A stretch of 64,000 nt of DNA from Luteolibacter ambystomatis. GTDB lineage: Bacteria > Verrucomicrobiota > Verrucomicrobiia > Verrucomicrobiales > Akkermansiaceae. The notes beneath the pieces are model-generated. The model made no database searches. It was not told the origin of the DNA and saw nothing but the letters and a program-made list of their open reading frames with translations. How positions within the stretch are numbered: position 1 is the stretch's first letter; every line of letters starts with the position of its first letter. This document shows positions 5,956 to 46,889 of the stretch, piece after piece. The stretch lies in assembly GCF_018137965.1 (NCBI RefSeq), contig NZ_CP073100.1:2925754-2989753 (forward strand). Reading direction: 5' to 3'. Position numbers and translations under genes: made by a program.

Positions 5956-6810
5956 ATGTTCAGGGATGAAGCCGTTAGCCCCTTTGGCGGTCTGAATTCC
6001 ACCGCCTTCACCCACCTGCGGGATCTCGACTACGCGGGCCACGGCAATCCCGCCCAGACGCTGGACCTGCTGCTGCCGCCACGCGGTGACGGCCCACCCC
6101 ATCCGGTGGTCATCTACATCCACGGCGGATCCTGGGACTCCGGAGAGAAGGAAGACGGTCTCGTGCCTCTGAGCCTGCTGGCCAGCGGTGACTTCGCGCT
6201 GGTCAGCATCAACTACCGGCTCACGGGCGAGGCACGCTGGCCAGCCCCCTTGGAAGATGCCCGCGCCGCACTCGCCTTTCTCCGGGAAAACGCCGCCACC
6301 TGGCATCTCGATCCGGAGCGGATCGGCATCGTGGGCGTATCCGCGGGCGGACAGATCGCGGGCATGCTCGGCACCCATGCGCCCGGGACGACCGCCCCGG
6401 ACGGCATCCGCTGCGTGGCCAGCTTCTTCGGACCCACCGATTTCCTCTCGCTGGTGGGCCATCCCGAGTCATTGGAGCCGGAAGAGGCGGCGTTCGCGGA
6501 ACGGTTTTTCGGCATCGCGGGACCTGACCTGTTGGAAACGGCGCGGCGCGCCTCACCCGTGAACTGGGTGGGGCCGGACGCCGCCCCTTTCCTGCTGATC
6601 CATGGCACCGAGGACGAGGTCGTGCCGTTTTCCCAATCCGAGGGGATGCATGCCGCCCTGCTGCATGCCGGGGTGGAAAGTACGATGATTCCCGTAGCTG
6701 GAGCCGGCCACGGCTTTTTCGTCCCCGCCTTGCTGGAGCCGGTACGCCAGTTCCTCGGCAGGCACCTGCTGGATCGGGCCGATGCCCTGCCGCGACGGCG
6801 CGCGGGATGA
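5956..6810 (+). CDS. Alpha/beta hydrolase (HSL-type esterase/lipase)
   Basis: 284 residues from the ATG at 5956. The frame stays open upstream to 5692, but that part is antisense to the GH95 gene and not protein-like. It shows the oxyanion-hole motif HGGSW (about residue 56), the nucleophile elbow GVSAGG (Ser about 129), the acid region HGTEDEVVP (about 216) and the histidine region GAGHGFF (about 250). These are the hallmarks of the hormone-sensitive-lipase/carboxylesterase branch of the alpha/beta hydrolases. There is no signal peptide, so it is probably cytoplasmic. Placed between two glycosidase genes, it could deacetylate sugars, but that is inference. Confidence 0.85.
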   Translation: MFRDEAVSPFGGLNSTAFTHLRDLDYAGHGNPAQTLDLLLPPRGDGPPHPVVIYIHGGSWDSGEKEDGLVPLSLLASGDFALVSINYRLTGEARWPAPLEDARAALAFLRENAATWHLDPERIGIVGVSAGGQIAGMLGTHAPGTTAPDGIRCVASFFGPTDFLSLVGHPESLEPEEAAFAERFFGIAGPDLLETARRASPVNWVGPDAAPFLLIHGTEDEVVPFSQSEGMHAALLHAGVESTMIPVAGAGHGFFVPALLEPVRQFLGRHLLDRADALPRRRAG

Positions 6811-33876: not shown

Positions 33877-35025
33877 TCACGGAGATCCGGCCAGCACCCC
33901 GCTTTTCTTCAGCCGTGCGAAACGTTCCGCACCCAGATAGTTGAGCAGCTTCGCCTCATTTTCGCGCGCAAGACCGCGCAGTGAGCCTTCCACCGCTTCC
34001 TCATCCGCGGGATTTCCACCGGCCCCGCTGCTTTGCCGGAGATTCCGGACCTTCTCATCGTAGTCCCTTAGTTCGGAATACAGGTAGTCGATGTCGCCCC
34101 CGCCCAGATTCCATGCTCCGGCATACCGTTGCAGGGTCTGGTAGCGGCCATCCTGGTGCATCCGGAGATCGGCCAGAGTGTCTCCCCCGAGCATTTCCAG
34201 CAGACGCTGGTCACGCCCCGCATCCAGGGTGCGGAGCTGCTGCTCGAACTCCTCATCGGTGAGGCCGTTCAACCGCCGCTCGTCATCCGCCCGGGCCCGC
34301 GCCTCCCGCCACTGTTGCTGGATTGCCAAAGCGGCATCGACCTGATCGCCACTCGCACCGGCACGCGCAAGGTCGCGGTACAGTTCTCCGACCTCGCTGT
34401 CGCCGGGCTGCAGCGAAGCGTAGCGAGCCTGGCCGAGCAGCCCTTTCAGCTCCCGCTCATAGTCCTCATGGTTCGCTTCCGTCTGCCGTTCCAGGTCCGT
34501 CTCGTCGATCTCCCCCCGCAGCAAGGCCGCCTGCAGGTCACGGGTCTTGCAATCCAGAGTCTTCCGCAGACGGAACAAGTCATCGGTTTCCGGAGCCGAC
34601 AACTTCAAGCGCTCCATGTCAAAACCCCGCAGCACCCTCTCGCGATCCCATGCCTGGAAACCCGCATCACCGAGGCAATCGCGCATCCGGCTTTCCAGCC
34701 CGGCTTCGTGCCCGGCCACGAAGTTCTCCATATCGGCCGCGTCGATCTCCCCCCGCGAAAGCTGTTGCTGTATCTCCAGCAGACGCTTTTGCCACCGGTC
34801 TTCGTAATCGGAGGCAGCCAGCGACGCGATCAGGTGCTCCCCGATGCCTTCATCCCGCAGCCGGTCGATCCAGACGAGCCGGGGAACACTCCGCCGGAGG
34901 GATTTCGGTTCGTTCGCAGCGTCCCCGGTTGTCTCTACCTTCTTTTCTTCCGGCACGCGTACCAGCCATGCGAGCAACACGGCATTGAGTCCCAGCGACA
35001 GATAAAAGGCGCCTTTCGCTTTCAT
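33877..35025 (-). CDS. Membrane-anchored helical protein, function unknown
   Basis: 382 residues. One N-terminal membrane segment (FYLSLGLNAVLLAWLV) is followed by a very charged, helical exported region. Repeated phrases such as RLLEIQQQLSRGEIDAADMENFVAGHEAGLE and DLQAALLRGEIDETDLERQTEANHEDYERE suggest internal duplication of about 100 residues and coiled-coil character. I recognise no family. It follows the gene at 35035 by 9 bp and is likely cotranscribed with it. Confidence 0.6.
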   Translation of the reverse strand: MKAKGAFYLSLGLNAVLLAWLVRVPEEKKVETTGDAANEPKSLRRSVPRLVWIDRLRDEGIGEHLIASLAASDYEDRWQKRLLEIQQQLSRGEIDAADMENFVAGHEAGLESRMRDCLGDAGFQAWDRERVLRGFDMERLKLSAPETDDLFRLRKTLDCKTRDLQAALLRGEIDETDLERQTEANHEDYERELKGLLGQARYASLQPGDSEVGELYRDLARAGASGDQVDAALAIQQQWREARARADDERRLNGLTDEEFEQQLRTLDAGRDQRLLEMLGGDTLADLRMHQDGRYQTLQRYAGAWNLGGGDIDYLYSELRDYDEKVRNLRQSSGAGGNPADEEAVEGSLRGLARENEAKLLNYLGAERFARLKKSGVLAGSP

Positions 35026-38793: not shown

Positions 38794-38942
38794 GCCGATC
38801 ACTAGAAGCGATCCGCCCGCGGTGCAACCCCGCACGCCGGAGTCCGGACGGTTCCACCGTATTGCATGGCTTTTTTTGAGACCTTGCTAGACCTGTAGCA
38901 CTGGCGTCGTAGAGTTCGCCTCTCATCATCGTGCATACCACC

Positions 38943-41529
38943 ATGTCAAAGACTGCTTCGATCATTGCCACCTTTGCCGCCAGCACGGCAGCCCTCCACG
39001 CCGCGAACTGGTACGAAGAAATGCAGATCGGCCCCGCGTGGTCGAACACCTTCGACGACACCTTCCAGGGCCAGAAACGCCTCGCCGCCGTCAAGGGCAT
39101 CCTCCTCGACCTCGGCGACGGCCAGTCCCACGCCCTCTTCGACACCGAGACCCTCGGCCTCGTCAACGCCTACTCCGGATTCGTCCACTGGGGCGGAACC
39201 CCGTGGACCGGCAAGCACGCCGTCCTCGTCGCCCTCGCCGATGAAACCCCGGTCTTCAACACCGCACGCGGCACCGCCAAGTGGGCCGATGCCAAGGGCT
39301 CCTTCGAGGACTCCCGCAAGATCCCCGGCTACGGCAATTTCGACCACGCCCGCTTCAACGGCTACTTCCGCTCCGGTTCCACCATCGTGCTGGACTACAC
39401 CGTGCTCGGCAGCCGCGTGCTCGAAACCGTCGCCGCCAGGGATGGCACCGTCACCCGCTCCTTCGACCTCGCCGAGCGCAAGAGCGACCTCACCACCGTC
39501 GCCGCCGATGAGGCCAAGCCCTTCACCGTCGCCGCCGACGGCCTCTCCGCCAAATCCGAGGACGGCCTGACTGTCACCACCAAAGGCGGCAAGCTCGCCG
39601 CCGACCCCAAGTCCCCGGGCCGCCTGCTGCTGCGCTTCGCCAAGGGTGACAAGACCACCGCCCAGGTCGCCTACGCCCGCGGCGCCGAGCCGAAGCCCGC
39701 CGCCGCACCGGACTTCGCCACCCTGCTCAAGGGCGGCGCCCCGCTGTGGAAGGACAAGATCACCACCGAAGGCAAGGTCTCCACCGACACCAGGGAGCCC
39801 TACGCCACCGACATCGCCACCCTGCCCACCGGCAACCCGTGGAAGGCCAACCTGCGCTTCGGCGGCTTCGACTTCATCGATGACGACAGCGCCGCCCTCT
39901 CCGCCTGGAACGGCGATGTCTGGGTCGTCAAGGGCCTCAAGGGCGACTGGAAGCAGCTCGTCTGGCAGCGCGTCGCCTCCGGACTCTTCGAGCCCCTCGG
40001 CGTCAAGGTCGTCAACGGCATCATCCACGTCAACGGCCGCGACCAGATCACCCAGCTCATCGACCTCAACGGCGACGGCGAGATCGACCAGTTCAAGGCC
40101 TTCAACCGCGACGTCTATGTCACCGAGAACTTCCACGAGTTCGCCTTCGACCTCCAGACCGACAAGCAGGGCAACTTCTACTTCTCCAAGGCCGGCCCGG
40201 TGAAGTCCGGCGGCCGCGGCTTCGACAAGACCCTGCCCAACAACGGCACCATCAACAAGGTCAGCGCGGACGGGAAGAAGCTCGAGGTCGTCGCCACCGG
40301 CCTGCGCGCCCCCGGCGGCGTGGGTGTCGGCCCCAACGGCGAGATCAGCGCCGGGGAGAACGAGGGATCGTGGGAGCCGGCCTGCAAGATCAACTTCGCC
40401 CGCGCTTCCGAGCTGCCGGTGTTCTTCGGCTGCGAGCCCACTCGCCAGGAGCTCGGCAAGGGCAAGCCCTACACCGAGCCGCTGTGCTACCTGCCGATGG
40501 ACATGGACAACTCCGGCGCCTCCCAGGTGTGGGTGCCGGAAGGCGCGAAGTTCGGGGTCAATCCCGGCGAGATGCTGCACCTCTCCTACGGCCAGTCCTC
40601 GATCTACCGGGTGCTGCCGCAGCGGGCGGGCGACCGCCTGCAGGCCGGAGTCTCAAGCTGCCAATCAAGCTCCAGTCCTCGGCGATGCGCGCGCGCTTCG
40701 CCACGGACGGCTCGATGTACGTGCTGGGCTTCCGCGGCTGGCAGACCAATGCGGCCACCGAGTGCGCGTTCCAGCGCGTGCGCTACACCGGCAAGCCGCT
40801 CCCGGCACCGGACAAGTATGAAGTGAGCAGGACCGGCGTGAAGCTGCACTTCGCCCAGCCGCTGGACGCGGAGCTGGCGAAGGACCCGGCGAGCTACGCG
40901 GTGCTGCGGTGGAACTACGTGCGCTCCAGCCAGTATGGCTCGGGCGAGTTCTCGGTGGACCACCGCGACGCGGCGGCCGAGGAAGCGGCGATGACCAAGG
41001 AGTCGCACAACGTCAAGCAGCGCGACAAGGTGACGGTGACCTCCGCCACGCTGTCGTCGGATGGCAGGACGGTGGAGCTGGCGTTGGAAGGCATGAAGCC
41101 CTCGATGCAGCTCCAGGTCGGCTACGACCTGGAGGACAAGGACGGCAACCCGGTCAAGAGCAACGTCACCGGCACCAGCTGCACTTCGCCCAGCCGCTGG
41201 ACGCGGAGCTGGCGAAGGACCCGGCGAGCTACGCGGTGCTGCGGTGGAACTACGTGCGCTCCAGCCAGTATGGCTCGGGCGAGTTCTCGGTGGACCACCG
41301 CGACGCGGCGGCCGAGGAAGCGGCGATGACCAAGGAGTCGCACAACGTCAAGCAGCGCGACAAGGTGACGGTGACCTCCGCCACGCTGTCGTCGGATGGC
41401 AGGACGGTGGAGCTGGCGTTGGAAGGCATGAAGCCCTCGATGCAGCTCCAGGTCGGCTACGACCTGGAGGACAAGGACGGCAACCCGGTCAAGAGCAACG
41501 TCACCGGCACCGTGTACGTCGTTCCCTGA
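38943..41529 (+). pseudogene. DUF6797-type secreted protein gene, broken by frameshift and 335-bp tandem duplication
   Basis: Reading starts at the ATG at 38943 with a signal peptide (SIIATFAASTAALHAA) and NWYEEMQIGPAWSNTF. The body contains propeller-like repeats (DLNGDGEIDQF, ATGLRAPGGVGVGPNGEI). At about 40650 the frame breaks: GDRLQAGV is followed out of frame, while KLPIKLQSSAMRARF continues one register over, consistent with loss of one base. From 40842 a 335-bp segment is repeated exactly at 41177-41511, shifting the frame again. Removing one copy and restoring one base gives a single 750-codon gene ending YVVP. The family is recalled from Verrucomicrobiota genomes, where it sits next to multi-haem cytochromes as here. 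As written the product ends in 57 wrong residues. Confidence 0.75.
40842..41511 (+). repeat. Exact 335-bp tandem direct duplication
   Basis: Copy 1 is 40842-41176 and copy 2 is 41177-41511. I compared the two copies by eye and found no difference. Both begin AGCTGCACTTCGCCCAGC and end AACGTCACCGGCACC. The unit is not a multiple of three. The sequence ahead of copy 1 (GACCGGCGTGA) and the end of each copy (CACCGGCACC) share ACCGGC, a possible slippage microhomology. Either a very recent duplication or an assembly artefact. Confidence 0.9.
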
Positions 41530-43737: not shown

Positions 43738-44634
43738 TTACGGAGCCTTCGCAAACGGGCTGGCCGTTTCACGCTGTTTGATCTCCTTCGGCATCCACGT
43801 CCACGGGTCCTGGCCCTTCGGCGTATAGACCGCCAGGCCGATTACGCCGACATTACGAGTATCCCCTTTGGAAAGGTTCGCATACGAATTGTTCACCGTG
43901 GAGAATTGGAACGCCGCCACCGAGTTGTAGCCGGTGCGGTAGCCTTCCACTTCCAACGTCTCACCCGCGGGCACCACATAGCCACGCTTCGTCACGCTCG
44001 CGGTTTTGCCGTCGATCACATCGAGACCATCGACGCTGAGCACCACCTGCAGGTCGCACTTGCAGCGGTTGTGGAGGACGATCGAGTAAGTGCCACCGTG
44101 CGTGCCCTCGACGAAACGACGATAGCCGCGTCCGTGGGAATAGGAGCGGTAGCTGGTCAGGAAACCAAAGTTCCCCTTGATCCCCCACTCCAGCATGTCA
44201 CCTGCGACCGTCTGAAAACCCTCGGTTGTCTCATCGCTGGTCACGTTCATCGCCTTCAAACCCTCCCTGTCATTGTAGTAAATCGCATCAATGCCCGCTG
44301 GTCGTGAAGATGCGCGATCAAACGACGTGGAGGTCATCGCCGACTTGATGCTACGCCCGAACGTGGTGGCCAATCCCGGGCGCTCCTTCTTCGGTGCGGC
44401 GAAGGCATCCGAGGCGGATGCACTGCTCCCGCTCCTCTTGGGATTGCTCAGGATGGCATCAATACGGTTGCGTGAAATCACCCCATCACCAGGACTGCGC
44501 CCTCCGGTGACAGCATTCGAAGCACTCTCACCATAGGGACTCTTGAATGCGCCCCCGCCAGCGCTTGTCGTTGAACAGGAATTCAGCATCCACACCAACA
44601 GGCCCGTCGCGGGGATCAACCATCGAAGTTTCAT
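43738..44634 (-). CDS. Lipoprotein 1 of the GDTRNVGVIG family
   Basis: 298 residues. The N-terminus is a lipoprotein signal with lipobox MLNS|C at Cys20. A low-complexity Ser/Ala/Lys linker follows. The conserved domain starts near IDAIYYNDREGLKAMNV and contains LHNRCKCDLQVVLSVDGLDVIDG, KRGYVVPAGETLEVEGYRTG, AFQFSTVNNSYANLSKGDTRNVGVIG and DPWTWMP. The same phrases occur in lipoprotein 2 (44714-45496), so the two are paralogs. Comparable domains occur in periplasmic proteins of proteobacteria, with no function known to me. Two TGCTG-N6-CAGCA dyads lie upstream, one ending 2 bp before the ATG, so the BlaI-like repressor probably controls it. Confidence 0.75.
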   Translation of the reverse strand: MKLRWLIPATGLLVWMLNSCSTTSAGGGAFKSPYGESASNAVTGGRSPGDGVISRNRIDAILSNPKRSGSSASASDAFAAPKKERPGLATTFGRSIKSAMTSTSFDRASSRPAGIDAIYYNDREGLKAMNVTSDETTEGFQTVAGDMLEWGIKGNFGFLTSYRSYSHGRGYRRFVEGTHGGTYSIVLHNRCKCDLQVVLSVDGLDVIDGKTASVTKRGYVVPAGETLEVEGYRTGYNSVAAFQFSTVNNSYANLSKGDTRNVGVIGLAVYTPKGQDPWTWMPKEIKQRETASPFAKAP

Positions 44635-44636
44635 AG

Positions 44637-44652
44637 TGCTGAAAAAACAGCA
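44637..44652. promoter_or_regulatory. Putative BlaI-like operator, site C
   Basis: TGCTGAAAAAACAGCA, a 16-bp dyad with 5-bp arms TGCTG/CAGCA, ends 2 bp before the lipoprotein 1 start codon. Binding here would block the start region. Confidence 0.6.
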
Positions 44653-44666
44653 TTTTCAAGCCCACA

Positions 44667-44672
44667 CGTCAA
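44667..44672 (-). promoter_or_regulatory. Candidate -35 element of lipoprotein 1
   Basis: TTGACG on the minus strand, 8 bp downstream of operator D. The same hexamer lies 6 bp downstream of operator A ahead of lipoprotein 2 (45529-45534), a conserved arrangement. No convincing -10 could be fixed. Confidence 0.35.
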
Positions 44673-44680
44673 TCAAATAA

Positions 44681-44696
44681 TGCTACATTTCCAGCA
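44681..44696. promoter_or_regulatory. Putative BlaI-like operator, site D
   Basis: TGCTACATTTCCAGCA, a 16-bp dyad differing from site A at few positions, lies 44 bp from site C (centre to centre), about four helical turns. Confidence 0.5.
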
Positions 44697-44713
44697 TTTA
44701 AAAATCCACCACC

Positions 44714-45496
44714 TTAAAACTCCATCCCGCCGCGCGGAGTCTCCGTCTTAGCCCACTTCCATGGATCTACGCCCTGCGGCTTGAAAACCGCGATGCCAAT
44801 GACGCCTACATTGCGGGTGTCTCCGGTCGAATACCGGACCTTCGAGTTCGCCACGGAGGTGAACCGGAAGGCCTTGCCGTCATAACGGTCGGTGGGATAG
44901 CCCCTCACCTCATCCATCGCCCCGGCCTTGATCACGAACCCCGCCTGATTGACACCCGCAGGACGGCCATCCTTCACATTCACGCCATCGATGCTCAGCA
45001 CCACCAGCAGGTCGCTGTTGCAGCGGTTGTAGAATACCACGGAATATTCATCCCCACTCTTCCCCTCCACGAAGTGCAGGCCTTTTCCTCCAGTGTTACC
45101 AGGTCTGTAGTAGCTCGGCAGGAAGTCCGACCTGCCCTTGATACCCCAGTCGAGCACGCCGCCCGCCACCGGAAAGATCCCGTTGATCGGTGTGTCCGGC
45201 ACGCCCATGGCCGTCAGTCCCGCCCGGTCGTTGTAGTGGATGGAGTCGATGCCATACGGACCGGCGCCTCCGCCATTCGCGCCGCTGGCGGAGGCGCCGA
45301 TGCTGACCGTCGATCCCGCAGTAGTCGCCAGTCCCTTCCTTTCGGCGGATGCACCCTGGCTCGCCGCGGCATCCGCGGTTCGGCGCGCTGCGACCACATT
45401 CGGCGCGATGTCCGCGTTGCCGTTGTCATAGGAAACACAGGAATTCAGTCCACAGGCCATCAGAGCCGATGCCAGCCACTTCCAAGTCGTTTTCAT
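44714..45496 (-). CDS. Lipoprotein 2 of the GDTRNVGVIG family
   Basis: 260 residues from the ATG at 45496 (MKTTWKWLASALMACG); the frame is open 15 bp further. Lipobox GLNS|C. An Ala/Gly-rich linker precedes the conserved domain: YGIDSIHYNDRAGLTAMGV, FYNRCNSDLLVVLSIDGVNV, GFVIKAGAMDEVRGYPTDRY, FRFTSVANSKVRYSTGDTRNVGVIG and DPWKWAK. It is a paralog of lipoprotein 1, which lies downstream on the same strand with its own operators. It is divergent from the BlaI-like gene, and operator A lies in the shared 100-bp promoter region. Probable periplasm-facing lipoprotein induced when the repressor is cleaved. Confidence 0.75.
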   Translation of the reverse strand: MKTTWKWLASALMACGLNSCVSYDNGNADIAPNVVAARRTADAAASQGASAERKGLATTAGSTVSIGASASGANGGGAGPYGIDSIHYNDRAGLTAMGVPDTPINGIFPVAGGVLDWGIKGRSDFLPSYYRPGNTGGKGLHFVEGKSGDEYSVVFYNRCNSDLLVVLSIDGVNVKDGRPAGVNQAGFVIKAGAMDEVRGYPTDRYDGKAFRFTSVANSKVRYSTGDTRNVGVIGIAVFKPQGVDPWKWAKTETPRGGMEF

Positions 45497-45540
45497 CGGC
45501 TGCCATGACACCCCGCGCCCGCCTTTCCCGTCAACACCAA

Positions 45541-45556
45541 TGCTGAATTTTCAGCA
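45541..45556. promoter_or_regulatory. Putative BlaI-like operator, site A
   Basis: TGCTGAATTTTCAGCA is a palindrome that extends to a perfect 9+2+9 bp dyad at 45539-45558. It lies between divergent lipoprotein 2 and blaI-like genes, so one repressor could control both. Confidence 0.7.
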
Positions 45557-45563
45557 TTTTAAT

Positions 45564-45579
45564 TGCGGAATTTTTAGCA
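45564..45579. promoter_or_regulatory. Putative BlaI-like operator, site B
   Basis: TGCGGAATTTTTAGCA matches site A at 14 of 16 positions. Its start is 23 bp from that of site A, about two helical turns, which favours cooperative binding. It is 17 bp before the blaI-like ATG; TTTAAT between the two sites is a possible -10. Confidence 0.6.
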
Positions 45580-45596
45580 CGTGCCAGACTGGCCGC

Positions 45597-45974
45597 ATGA
45601 AGCCTTTGGAAAGCCAGCTCTCGCGCCGCGAGCGGCAGGTCATGGACATCCTCTTCCGCCTCGGCAAGGCCACGGCGCAGGAAGTGATGGACGAAATGAG
45701 CGACCCGCCCAGCTACTCCGCCGTGCGCGCGCTGATGGTGACGCTGGAAACGAAGGGCCACGTGAAGCACGGCAAGGAATCCCGCCGCTACGTGTACAGC
45801 CCTGCCGTCCCGGAAAAGAAGGCGAAGCGTTCCGCTCTGAAACAGTTGCTCGCGACGTTTTTCGAGGGACGTCCGGAGAATCTCGTGGCATCCTTGCTGG
45901 ACCCGGAGGACCAACAGCTCAGCGGCGAGGAGATCGAACGCATCCGCAGCCTGATCGGGCCGAAGGAAAAATAA
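45597..45974 (+). CDS. BlaI/MecI/CopY-family winged-helix repressor
   Basis: 125 residues from the ATG at 45597; upstream codons to 45540 overlap the operators and are not part of the protein. The penicillinase-repressor fold is clear: LSRRERQVMDILFRLGKATAQEVMD (helices 1-2), SYSAVRALMVTLETKGHVKH (recognition helix and turn) and GKESRRYVYSP (wing). The C-terminal dimerisation helix carries LKQLLATFFEGRPENLVASLL. In BlaR1/BlaI systems the M56 protease partner cleaves the repressor. The M56 gene follows 9 bp downstream. Operators A and B precede it, so it is likely autoregulated. Confidence 0.9.
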   Translation: MKPLESQLSRRERQVMDILFRLGKATAQEVMDEMSDPPSYSAVRALMVTLETKGHVKHGKESRRYVYSPAVPEKKAKRSALKQLLATFFEGRPENLVASLLDPEDQQLSGEEIERIRSLIGPKEK

Positions 45975-45983
45975 CCCGCCGCC

Positions 45984-46889
45984 ATGAACGCGCTGATCGT
46001 CTTCCCCTTGCTCGCCGCGGCCGCCGTCTGGTTGGCCGGACGCCGCGATGCCTCGCGCGATCCGCGCCTCACCACGCTCGCGCTGGCATTGCTGGCGATC
46101 GCGCCGTTGTTCCTGTTTCTGCCGAAGATCCCGCTGCTGCCCGCGCCAGTGCTGGCGGAGGCACCCGCGGCTGCGCCGATATTTCCCTTTTGGGTCCTGA
46201 CCGCGCTCTGGCTGGCAGGATTCCTGTTTTGTGCCACCCGGCTCATGCTCTCCGCCATCGGTCTCACCCGCTGGCATCGGCGTTCCACGTTCATTGAGAC
46301 CACTTCCGATGGCGTGGAGATCCGCGAGTTGGATGGCCTTCGTGGTCCGGTGGCTGCGGGCGTGTTCCGCAAAACGATCTTTGTTCCGACAGGCTGGGCG
46401 ACTTGGGACGACTCCACGCGTGAAACGGTGCTGCTCCACGAGCTGGCCCATCACCGCCGCCACGATCCGCTTGTCCGCTGGATCGCCGCTATGGCGGTGG
46501 CCGTGCATTGGTTCAACCCGCTGGTGCATTGGATGAACCGTCGCCTTGCTCTCCAATGCGAGCACGCCTGCGACCGCCGCGTGATCGACACCGGCGTCCG
46601 TGCCGACCGCTACGCGGAAATGCTCTGCCGCTTCGCCGCGCGCGGACGCATGGATGCCGCCGGTCTGGCGATAGCGGAGATGTCTTCACTGGAGGCACGT
46701 GTGCGTCACCTCATGACCCCGCGTGCCTCGCGTGGCTTCTTCACCCTCGCCGCTCTCGCCAGCCTGGTGATCTGGGGCGGCTTCCTGCTGCCTTTGCTCG
46801 GTCGCAAAGCCACTCCCGTGAATGCTCCGGATCAAGCGGAGGTGGAAATGCGCCTCAGCGCGAATCCCTTTCCGGCCGATTCGCCATAA
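45984..46889 (+). CDS. M56-family membrane metalloprotease (BlaR1/MecR1-like, no sensor domain)
   Basis: 301 residues. Hydrophobic helices at about 1-20, 30-50 and 68-92 and a last one at about 248-270 surround the zinc protease: HELAH at 152-156 and the third ligand Glu193 in LQCEHACDRRV. These are the M56 signatures. Unlike BlaR1 (about 600 residues) it ends soon after the last helix, with only about 30 residues outside, and has no penicillin-binding domain. The signal it senses cannot be beta-lactam acylation of its own domain. It should cut the BlaI-like repressor encoded next to it. Confidence 0.88.
   Translation: MNALIVFPLLAAAAVWLAGRRDASRDPRLTTLALALLAIAPLFLFLPKIPLLPAPVLAEAPAAAPIFPFWVLTALWLAGFLFCATRLMLSAIGLTRWHRRSTFIETTSDGVEIRELDGLRGPVAAGVFRKTIFVPTGWATWDDSTRETVLLHELAHHRRHDPLVRWIAAMAVAVHWFNPLVHWMNRRLALQCEHACDRRVIDTGVRADRYAEMLCRFAARGRMDAAGLAIAEMSSLEARVRHLMTPRASRGFFTLAALASLVIWGGFLLPLLGRKATPVNAPDQAEVEMRLSANPFPADSP

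Follow-up and report, generated by a model that had tools for sequence, protein, structure and literature searches.

A Candidate BlaI/M56 Repressor–Protease Switch Lacking a Penicillin Sensor in Luteolibacter ambystomatis, and a C-Terminal Peptide Common to Its Protease and Lipoprotein

This study focused on a compact gene cassette of Luteolibacter ambystomatis (Verrucomicrobiota; Verrucomicrobiales; Akkermansiaceae), lying within a stretch of 64,000 nucleotides that was analysed as a whole and is called here the window (RefSeq assembly GCF_018137965.1, contig NZ_CP073100.1, positions 2,925,754 to 2,989,753, forward strand). The cassette consists of a gene for a BlaI-family repressor, a gene for an M56 (BlaR1-like) membrane metalloprotease, two lipoprotein genes oriented divergently to these, and four copies of an operator. 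With a probability that we put at roughly 0.8, it is an autoregulated repressor–protease switch without a sensor domain, the principal output of which is an envelope lipoprotein. Two of its features had been missed when the window was first read from its letters alone (the sequence-only reading), and both emerge from comparison with related loci: the operator goes with a particular BlaI subfamily, and the protease and the lipoprotein have one C-terminal peptide. The presence of the same peptide at the end of both proteins suggests that the switch reads the protein under its control.

Operators in the Window and in Related Loci

Four 16-bp dyads had been described in the promoter regions of the two lipoprotein genes and of blaI, and all four are present at the positions claimed, as are the TTGACG hexamers that, on the minus strand, follow site D by 8 bp (lipoprotein 1) and site A by 6 bp (lipoprotein 2). 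The dyad of site B is imperfect. A 22-bp matrix was built from 38 distinct operators of other genomes of the same order of bacteria as the host, with the window's genome, its nearest relative (G050) and two loci (L057, L060) excluded. The consensus is AAATGCTGGAAAAACAGCATTT, that is, TGC-N10-GCA with an A/T centre. This held-out matrix recovers exactly the four window sites, with scores from 19.0 to 30.7 (Table 1), the next match in the window scoring 8.4; the best scores in 20 first-order Markov sequences were no higher than 17.0. The search pattern that the sequence-only reading had proposed, TGCTG-N6-CAGCA with up to two mismatches, turned out to be too loose, since its 53 matches in the window (33 expected) exceed those of all 100 shuffles yet are scattered. 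With up to one mismatch it gave 344 matches in the host genome and its reversed control 300, so a genome-wide scan with the 16-bp pattern was dropped as non-selective and the 22-bp model was used instead. A perfect TGCTG-N6-CAGCA at window positions 34766-34781 has a matrix score of just 8.4, and the specificity of the operator comes from its A/T-rich centre and its flanks.

Lipoprotein 2 was searched against 99 genomes (the host and relatives), 37 of which gave a match. In 26 of 30 loci (L034-L063, own genome included), blaI divergently adjoins the lipoprotein gene, and the operator is conserved in both position and sequence. Within about 1.5 kb on each side of these 30 loci, a tandem pair of lipoprotein genes occurs only in the window's genome and in G050, so a single lipoprotein is probably ancestral. 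The intergenic regions of relatives have up to three operators: O1 directly before the lipoprotein ATG, O2 at 42–45 bp from O1, and O3, near blaI, at 23 bp from O2. Altogether, 65 sites lie in 30 of 31 intergenic regions, the regions that supplied the matrix; in L053, a broken cassette, there is no operator site in the intergenic region. TTGAC is conserved between O1 and O2, in the place of the -35-like element of lipoprotein 1, and so the -10 region would fall inside O1; in the window, O1 overlaps the presumed -10 region directly before the lipoprotein 1 ATG. O3 sits in the presumed blaI promoter. Two loci look degenerate: L053/L189, where the lipoprotein and blaI frames are cut (in L189) and the operator was not found, and L201 (Rubritalea profundi), where the lipoprotein has a prematurely ended frame and M56 a different end.

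In species genomes, at least 518 relatives were confirmed by a profile search, and the best 80 were kept. These represent Luteolibacter, Haloferula, Rubritalea, Roseibacillus, Persicirhabdus, other Verrucomicrobiales, Chthoniobacterales and Myxococcota. When these loci were grouped by hand, an operator scoring at least 14 was found near the lipoprotein start in 61 of the 64 Verrucomicrobiales-type loci and in none of the 16 distant ones. The 45,436 bases near lipoprotein starts contain 140 matrix sites, the 822,269 bases elsewhere only 3, and column-shuffled matrices gave 0–4 matches against 35 for the real matrix. No sampled 40-mer of 59 of the 80 loci occurs in the training loci, and the operator is present in 40 of the 43 Verrucomicrobiales-type loci among these 59.

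In 19 Verrucomicrobiales-type loci, some of them at contig ends, the lipoprotein gene has the operator and no blaI was found adjoining. Fifteen of these 19 genomes were examined, and 13 have a close blaI elsewhere (66–76% identical, one partial), in every case with an upstream operator match of at least 12, two of which are weak (12.3 and 13.8). The other two are metagenome-assembled genomes of unstated completeness, one with a blaI relative of 35% identity and one with none. Three genomes of distant loci, in which the lipoprotein lacks the operator, were searched as well: at E 1e-10 two of them gave no such blaI, and the third has a relative at 43%. The proposal that a BlaI/M56 module acts on the dyads and controls the lipoproteins gains support from an operator that is not only conserved but kept when the lipoprotein is separate from blaI.

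The listed genomes of genus g21, in the window's family, gave no match to such a BlaI or M56, indicating loss or absence of the cassette in that lineage. An impression from two loci (L058, L063) that family f4 lipoproteins lack the operator was overturned when other f4 genomes were found to have it. The O1 core, exact or with one mismatch, was run over 73 genomes of the genus (39 matched) and rejected for stray matches, such as one inside an open frame of G058 (L101, matrix score 12.3); its reversed control outnumbers it in some genomes (G026, G038). A plasmid search with BlaI gave 14 distant matches (22.8–32.2% identical).

BlaI Subfamily and Operator Class

The BlaIs of the cassette have a common YSAVRA-type recognition helix (YSAVRA or YSAIRA; YSATRA in L253). 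Distant BlaIs with the same helix type and no adjoining lipoprotein occur in other classes of the phylum (L241-L244); their dyads are of the form TGCTG/TGCTA...CAGCA/TAGCA, two found by dyad scan and two by eye, and the 22-bp matrix reaches 12 in just two of the four. A fifth (L257) has TGCTA-N6-TAGCA, by eye, with an asymmetric centre and no matrix match. The host genome has another BlaI, with a GWATVRTLL helix and a 535-aa M56 partner, at which the operator is of the classical type, ACTACAAATGTAGT (L112, G000 C1:1090000-1103000, blaI near 6287), and the new operator is absent at both other host blaI loci. The contrast drawn earlier between the window sites and TACA-N2-TGTA is therefore borne out, the former being TGC-N10-GCA and the classical form sitting at another BlaI of the same genome. 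Because two BlaIs of one genome have different operators, operator class seems to follow the recognition helix. As shown by sequence comparison, the YSAVRA-type BlaI and the operator co-occur, and they co-locate with the lipoprotein and with blaI itself. The L112 BlaI/M56 pair provides a natural control for operator specificity.

A C-Terminal Peptide Common to the Protease and the Lipoprotein

About 28 residues of M56 follow the last predicted membrane helix. An alignment of this tail (the window and 34 of 41 complete loci) is variable except at the end, which is EVEMRLSANPFPADSP in the window, and lipoprotein 1 ends KEIKQRETASPFAKAP. In both proteins the common peptide, E[VI]xxRxxAxPF, follows a variable linker and lies at the very C-terminus. 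The patterns counted below were chosen after the tails had been inspected, and host frames were counted in a 1.2 Mb sample (22.5%) of the genome with 5151 frames. The loose core RxxAx[PA]F falls within the last 25 residues in 41 of the 42 complete M56 proteins and in 76 of the 80 lipoproteins, as against 4 of 5151 host frames and 3 of 301 window frames; for the last 45 residues the corresponding numbers are 41, 76, 11 and 4. The strict form RxxAxPF[PA] is found in 37 M56 proteins and 60 lipoproteins of the same sets, in no host frame (one if the last 45 residues are taken), and in just two window frames, which are M56 and lipoprotein 1. A longer form, which adds an acidic position four residues ahead of the Arg and [PAS] behind the Phe, is present in 40/42, 68/80, 0/5151 and 2/301, respectively. 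The exceptions to the loose core are the M56 of L201, the lipoproteins of L189, L201 and L239 (short frames), and lipoprotein 2 of the window. Among the 1671 background frames of the 80 loci, four have the core within the last 25 residues, and two of these four resemble further M56 or lipoprotein copies. In genomes with an unlinked lipoprotein, 11 of 11 M56 proteins end with the peptide, as judged by eye.

Structural models of both proteins have a nine-residue helix ahead of the PF turn. In the M56 model the predicted local distance difference test (pLDDT) score of this tail helix is about 87–88, whereas the linker has about 73; this difference hints that the helix is docked somewhere.

Proteins of the Cassette

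The BlaI-like protein matches PF03965 (E 6.3e-28, residues 8-120) and aligns with MecI (8.3e-08), and the M56 protein matches PF05569 (E 6.1e-27). An AlphaFold2 model of M56 (mean pLDDT 90.2) superposes on Staphylococcus aureus BlaR1 (8exs) with Z 17.0 and a root-mean-square deviation (rmsd) of 3.2 over 222 residues, within model residues 1-233; the next non-BlaR1 structure in the search has Z 8.4. HExxH is present in 42 of 42 M56 proteins, and H152, E153, H156 and E193 are invariant in the 35 aligned. The Pfam scan reported no penicillin-binding domain in the 301 residues, which, with a BlaR1 match confined to residues 1-233, agrees with the earlier description of a short protease without such a domain. 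According to PMC9834060, BlaR1 cleaves BlaI directly between N101 and F102; the equivalent residues here are S99 and L100, and the same step is likely.

The lipobox LNSC ends at residue 20 in both lipoproteins (by motif alone), and C20 is invariant in 19 of 19 aligned. Pfam has no family for either window lipoprotein, 53 of 53 lipoproteins were unmatched, and a search against PDB sequences gave no match. A model of lipoprotein 1 (residues 75-298) is beta-rich with a pLDDT of 89.7; fold searches gave only weak matches, the best being E 0.024 with Foldseek and, with VIA, Z 5.3 (rmsd 3.6 over 97 residues) among immunoglobulin- or MATH-like entries. The two lipoproteins had already been recognized as paralogues; what had been overlooked is that they arose from a single ancestral lipoprotein by local duplication. 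Lipoprotein 2 has neither O1 nor the C-terminal motif, as is also the case for its G050 counterpart; this copy has probably diverged and differs in its expression pattern or role.

Table 1. Features of the BlaI/M56 cassette, in window coordinates.
Feature	Position	Strand	Basis
Lipoprotein 1, 298 aa, lipobox LNSC, ancestral-type	43738..44634	-	ORF; relatives beside blaI
C-terminal motif EIKQRETASPFA of lipoprotein 1, common to M56 tail	43750..43785	-	Motif counts
Operator O1 (site C)	44634..44655 (22 bp); 16-bp dyad 44637-44652		Matrix 30.7; O1 position conserved
TTGACG, -35-like, lipoprotein 1	44667..44672	-	17 bp before TGTTTT inside O1
Operator O2 (site D), upstream of lipoprotein 1 -35	44678..44699; dyad 44681-44696		Matrix 28.9
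Lipoprotein 2, 260 aa, diverged tandem duplicate	44714..45496	-	ORF; relatives of cassette
TTGACG, -35-like element, lipoprotein 2	45529..45534	-	Sequence
Operator O2 (site A), between lipoprotein 2 and blaI	45538..45559; dyad 45541-45556		Matrix 29.4
Operator O3 (site B), over presumed blaI promoter	45561..45582; dyad 45564-45579		Matrix 19.0; position conserved
BlaI-family repressor, 125 aa, recognition helix PPSYSAVRALM	45597..45974	+	PF03965; subfamily and MecI alignments
M56 (BlaR1-like) membrane metalloprotease, 301 aa, HELAH	45984..46889	+	PF05569; model; BlaR1 structure match
Periplasmic C-terminal motif EVEMRLSANPFP of M56, common to lipoprotein C-terminus	46839..46874	+	Motif counts

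Elsewhere in the window, a DUF6797-containing gene (38931-41529) looks frameshifted and has a repeated stretch, FAQPLDAELAKDPASYAVLRWNYVRSSQYGSGEF, in the ORFs 40370-41329 and 40909-41529, representing either a tandem duplication or an assembly error. A dyad, TGCTAGACCTGTAGCA, lies in the intergenic region before this gene (38885-38900); its score with the 22-bp matrix is below 6, and a connection with the cassette is unlikely.

Further Sites in the Host Genome

The dyads had been thought to be confined to the cassette promoters, which holds within the window but not for the genome. Two host-genome searches were made, one in which 150 of 1171 candidates were scored and one with the loose pattern at up to one mismatch. 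They revealed a strong extra site (29.2), upstream of a TTGAC before the gene of a 164-aa lipoprotein (C1:3770572-3771066), and two weaker ones: a site of 20.3 at 1913628 (L278 near 2628), between divergent open frames and scoring above site B, and a site of 17.7 at 913274 (L279 near 2274), about 20 bp before an open frame. Since site B itself (19.0) escaped both genome-wide searches, further weak sites may exist. A scan of the 1.2 Mb sample (60 stretches; about 2.61–3.06 and 4.34–5.32 Mb unsampled), in which windows scoring under -4 after six bases were discarded, found no site of at least 14. The regulon is probably small.

Extra sites were also seen in two relatives, in those genomes only, with orthologue loci outside the comparison. 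In G018 there are three, one before a VWA-like lipoprotein, one before a secreted protein and one without a clear gene (L096 5042; L095 5037; L094 4994), and G050 has an additional O1-TTGAC-O2 set (L100 5031 and 5071) before a secreted protein of about 690 aa. Candidate names considered were PEGA, VWA and DUF3160.

Proposed Mechanism and Alternatives

By analogy with the classical systems, a BlaI dimer of the YSAVRA-type subfamily would bind the 22-bp dyad AAATGCTGGAAAAACAGCATTT. The ancestral layout has up to three sites, O1 covering the -10 region and the start of the lipoprotein gene, O2 lying upstream of its -35 and O3 covering the blaI promoter; the lipoprotein and blaI would then be repressed together, a reading favoured by sequence comparison. 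After the duplication in the window, copy 1 has O1 and O2, copy 2 only O2, and blaI O3. An envelope signal would then activate M56, which would cleave BlaI and free the promoters, as BlaR1 does with its own repressor. To our knowledge, the signal for BlaR1-type proteases without a penicillin-binding domain is mostly unknown. Here, on the most economical reading, tentative as it is, the tail of M56 and the C-terminus of the lipoprotein would compete for one surface, the lipoprotein thereby feeding back on the protease, which could in this way register how much lipoprotein there is, where it lies or whether it is occupied. A fuller version is about as tentative: M56 might sense its own regulatory output, with its tail mimicking the lipoprotein peptide, in a proteolytic homeostasis of an outer-envelope lipoprotein.

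Several observations weigh against parts of this scheme. The lipoproteins of G098 and G077 (L058, L063) have the peptide, with no blaI or operator within about 7–8 kb, and the lipoprotein locus of G271 (L232) has no operator near the lipoprotein start; as these lipoproteins stand apart from the operator, the peptide has a role beyond the switch. The -10 of the lipoprotein promoter (TGTTTT) matches the consensus poorly, and the staphylococcal N101-F102 cleavage site corresponds to S99-L100 in the BlaI alignment; M56 might cut the repressor elsewhere. The lipoproteins may not be the sole targets, as the 20.3 and 17.7 sites precede other open frames. Lastly, 14 loci (13 genomes) homologous to the distal target at C1:3770572-3771066 have no site of at least 14 (best 13.3), so that the wider regulon does not appear to be conserved, and the idea of a wider conserved regulon was given up as unsupported.

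In favour of the scheme, all 19 short M56 proteins that lie beside a YSAVRA-type BlaI in 20 additional stretches from the order have RxxAx[PA]F[PA]. Against this count it must be set that most of the 20 loci were picked because their M56 match reached the C-terminus, that two repeat earlier loci, and that the BlaI helix was not displayed for three of the 19. Three stretches (L378, L388, L389) were picked for their lipoprotein and have the M56 peptide too; in the twentieth, the BlaI is a different one and the M56 frame has 1097 aa. The core is present in 15 of 18 lipoproteins of these stretches, the others ending RSFANPFG, REGARAFG and RQGASAFG.

A serious alternative, somewhat short of even odds, is that the lipoprotein is output only, that M56 senses a membrane, metal or peptidoglycan signal via a short loop, and that the peptide binds an unrelated third partner. 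A cyanobacterial BlaI/BlaR1-like pair is reported to respond to copper in PMC7896320, as far as that account goes. Lipoproteins of Myxococcota and Chthoniobacterales have the peptide with no blaI or M56 match and no operator nearby, pointing to an older partner, and because those of Myxococcota have it without a nearby cassette, it was probably the lipoprotein that had the peptide first and the protease that acquired it. A functional link between the two proteins is favoured by M56 proteins of the same BlaI type without an adjoining lipoprotein. In five such loci (L267-L271), a YSAVR-type BlaI is partnered by an M56 of 567–1155 aa with a varied, large C-terminal part, which suggests that different signals act on the same operator class. 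The peptide is absent from all five; four of the genomes have no lipoprotein at E 1e-3, and the fifth, G271, has one. The motif is thus missing from M56 in four of four lipoprotein-less genomes, although its absence there would fit a shared third partner too.

Compared to competition between the M56 tail and the lipoprotein, the remaining explanations fare poorly. If the peptide were a general tag for the export, sorting or degradation of envelope proteins in these bacteria, its place at the extreme end of both proteins behind a variable linker would be accounted for, but this is improbable given that the longer form is found in none of the sampled host frames and the loose core in only four. 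It is quite improbable that the cassette is a beta-lactam response module minus its sensor, with the lipoproteins as resistance factors: BlaI and BlaR1 homology favours it, but M56 has no penicillin-binding domain, the operator class differs, none of the ten proteins scanned (38.3-51.7 kb of the window) matches a beta-lactamase or penicillin-binding protein (PBP) family, all ten belonging to other families or to none, and the targets in the window are lipoproteins. That the dyads are due to chance or belong to another regulator, with BlaI/M56 an unrelated neighbour, is barely credible, for despite the many scattered matches to the 16-bp pattern by itself, the operator is conserved in position and sequence, passes the held-out test and co-occurs with a YSAVRA-type BlaI even when unlinked.

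A compact conserved system of this kind has an operator and a target that are both defined, and it offers a specific idea of the input, namely a tail peptide common to the target. If true, sensing of its own output would explain the input of a sensor-less M56 and represent a new input mode for the BlaR1 class, while an operator class linked to the recognition helix helps to predict BlaI regulons in poorly studied phyla.

Comparison with Known Systems

A literature search, thin on subscription journals, found no paper on the cassette, the operator or the shared peptide. The closest relatives are BlaI/BlaR1 and MecI/MecR1 of Staphylococcus and Bacillus, which likewise have a repressor and an M56 protease encoded by adjacent genes, dyads on divergent promoters, and the BlaR1 fold. 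They differ in that the penicillin-binding sensor is theirs only, their operator is TACA-N2-TGTA instead of TGC-N10-GCA with an A/T centre, the outputs here are lipoproteins, and their N-F cleavage site is S-L here. A more distant parallel is provided by RseA/DegS and RcsF-type surveillance, in which an envelope protein is sensed by a C-terminal peptide or by misplacement; the proteins are unrelated, and here the peptide motif lies within the protease itself.

CopY/CopR copper repressors, as portrayed in PMC7253601, belong to the same repressor family and often have two operators per promoter, but their operator is RNYKACANNYGTMRNY and they are controlled by metal instead of a protease. In Clostridium thermocellum, BlaI binds GTCTAT inverted repeats (PMC8457756), and the account given there of BlaI_0696 and BlaI_1845 resembles the present system in its non-classical operator, paired sites, autoregulation and very small regulons; the operator differs (GTCTAT or GACTAT repeats), and that account, so far as it extends, describes no lipoprotein partner. 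PetR/PetP of cyanobacteria, in the account of PMC7896320, similarly joins a BlaI-like regulator to a BlaR1-like protease, the two having been identified by gene neighbourhood, and has a small regulon unconnected with beta-lactams, the difference being that it controls plastocyanin and cytochrome c6 by copper.

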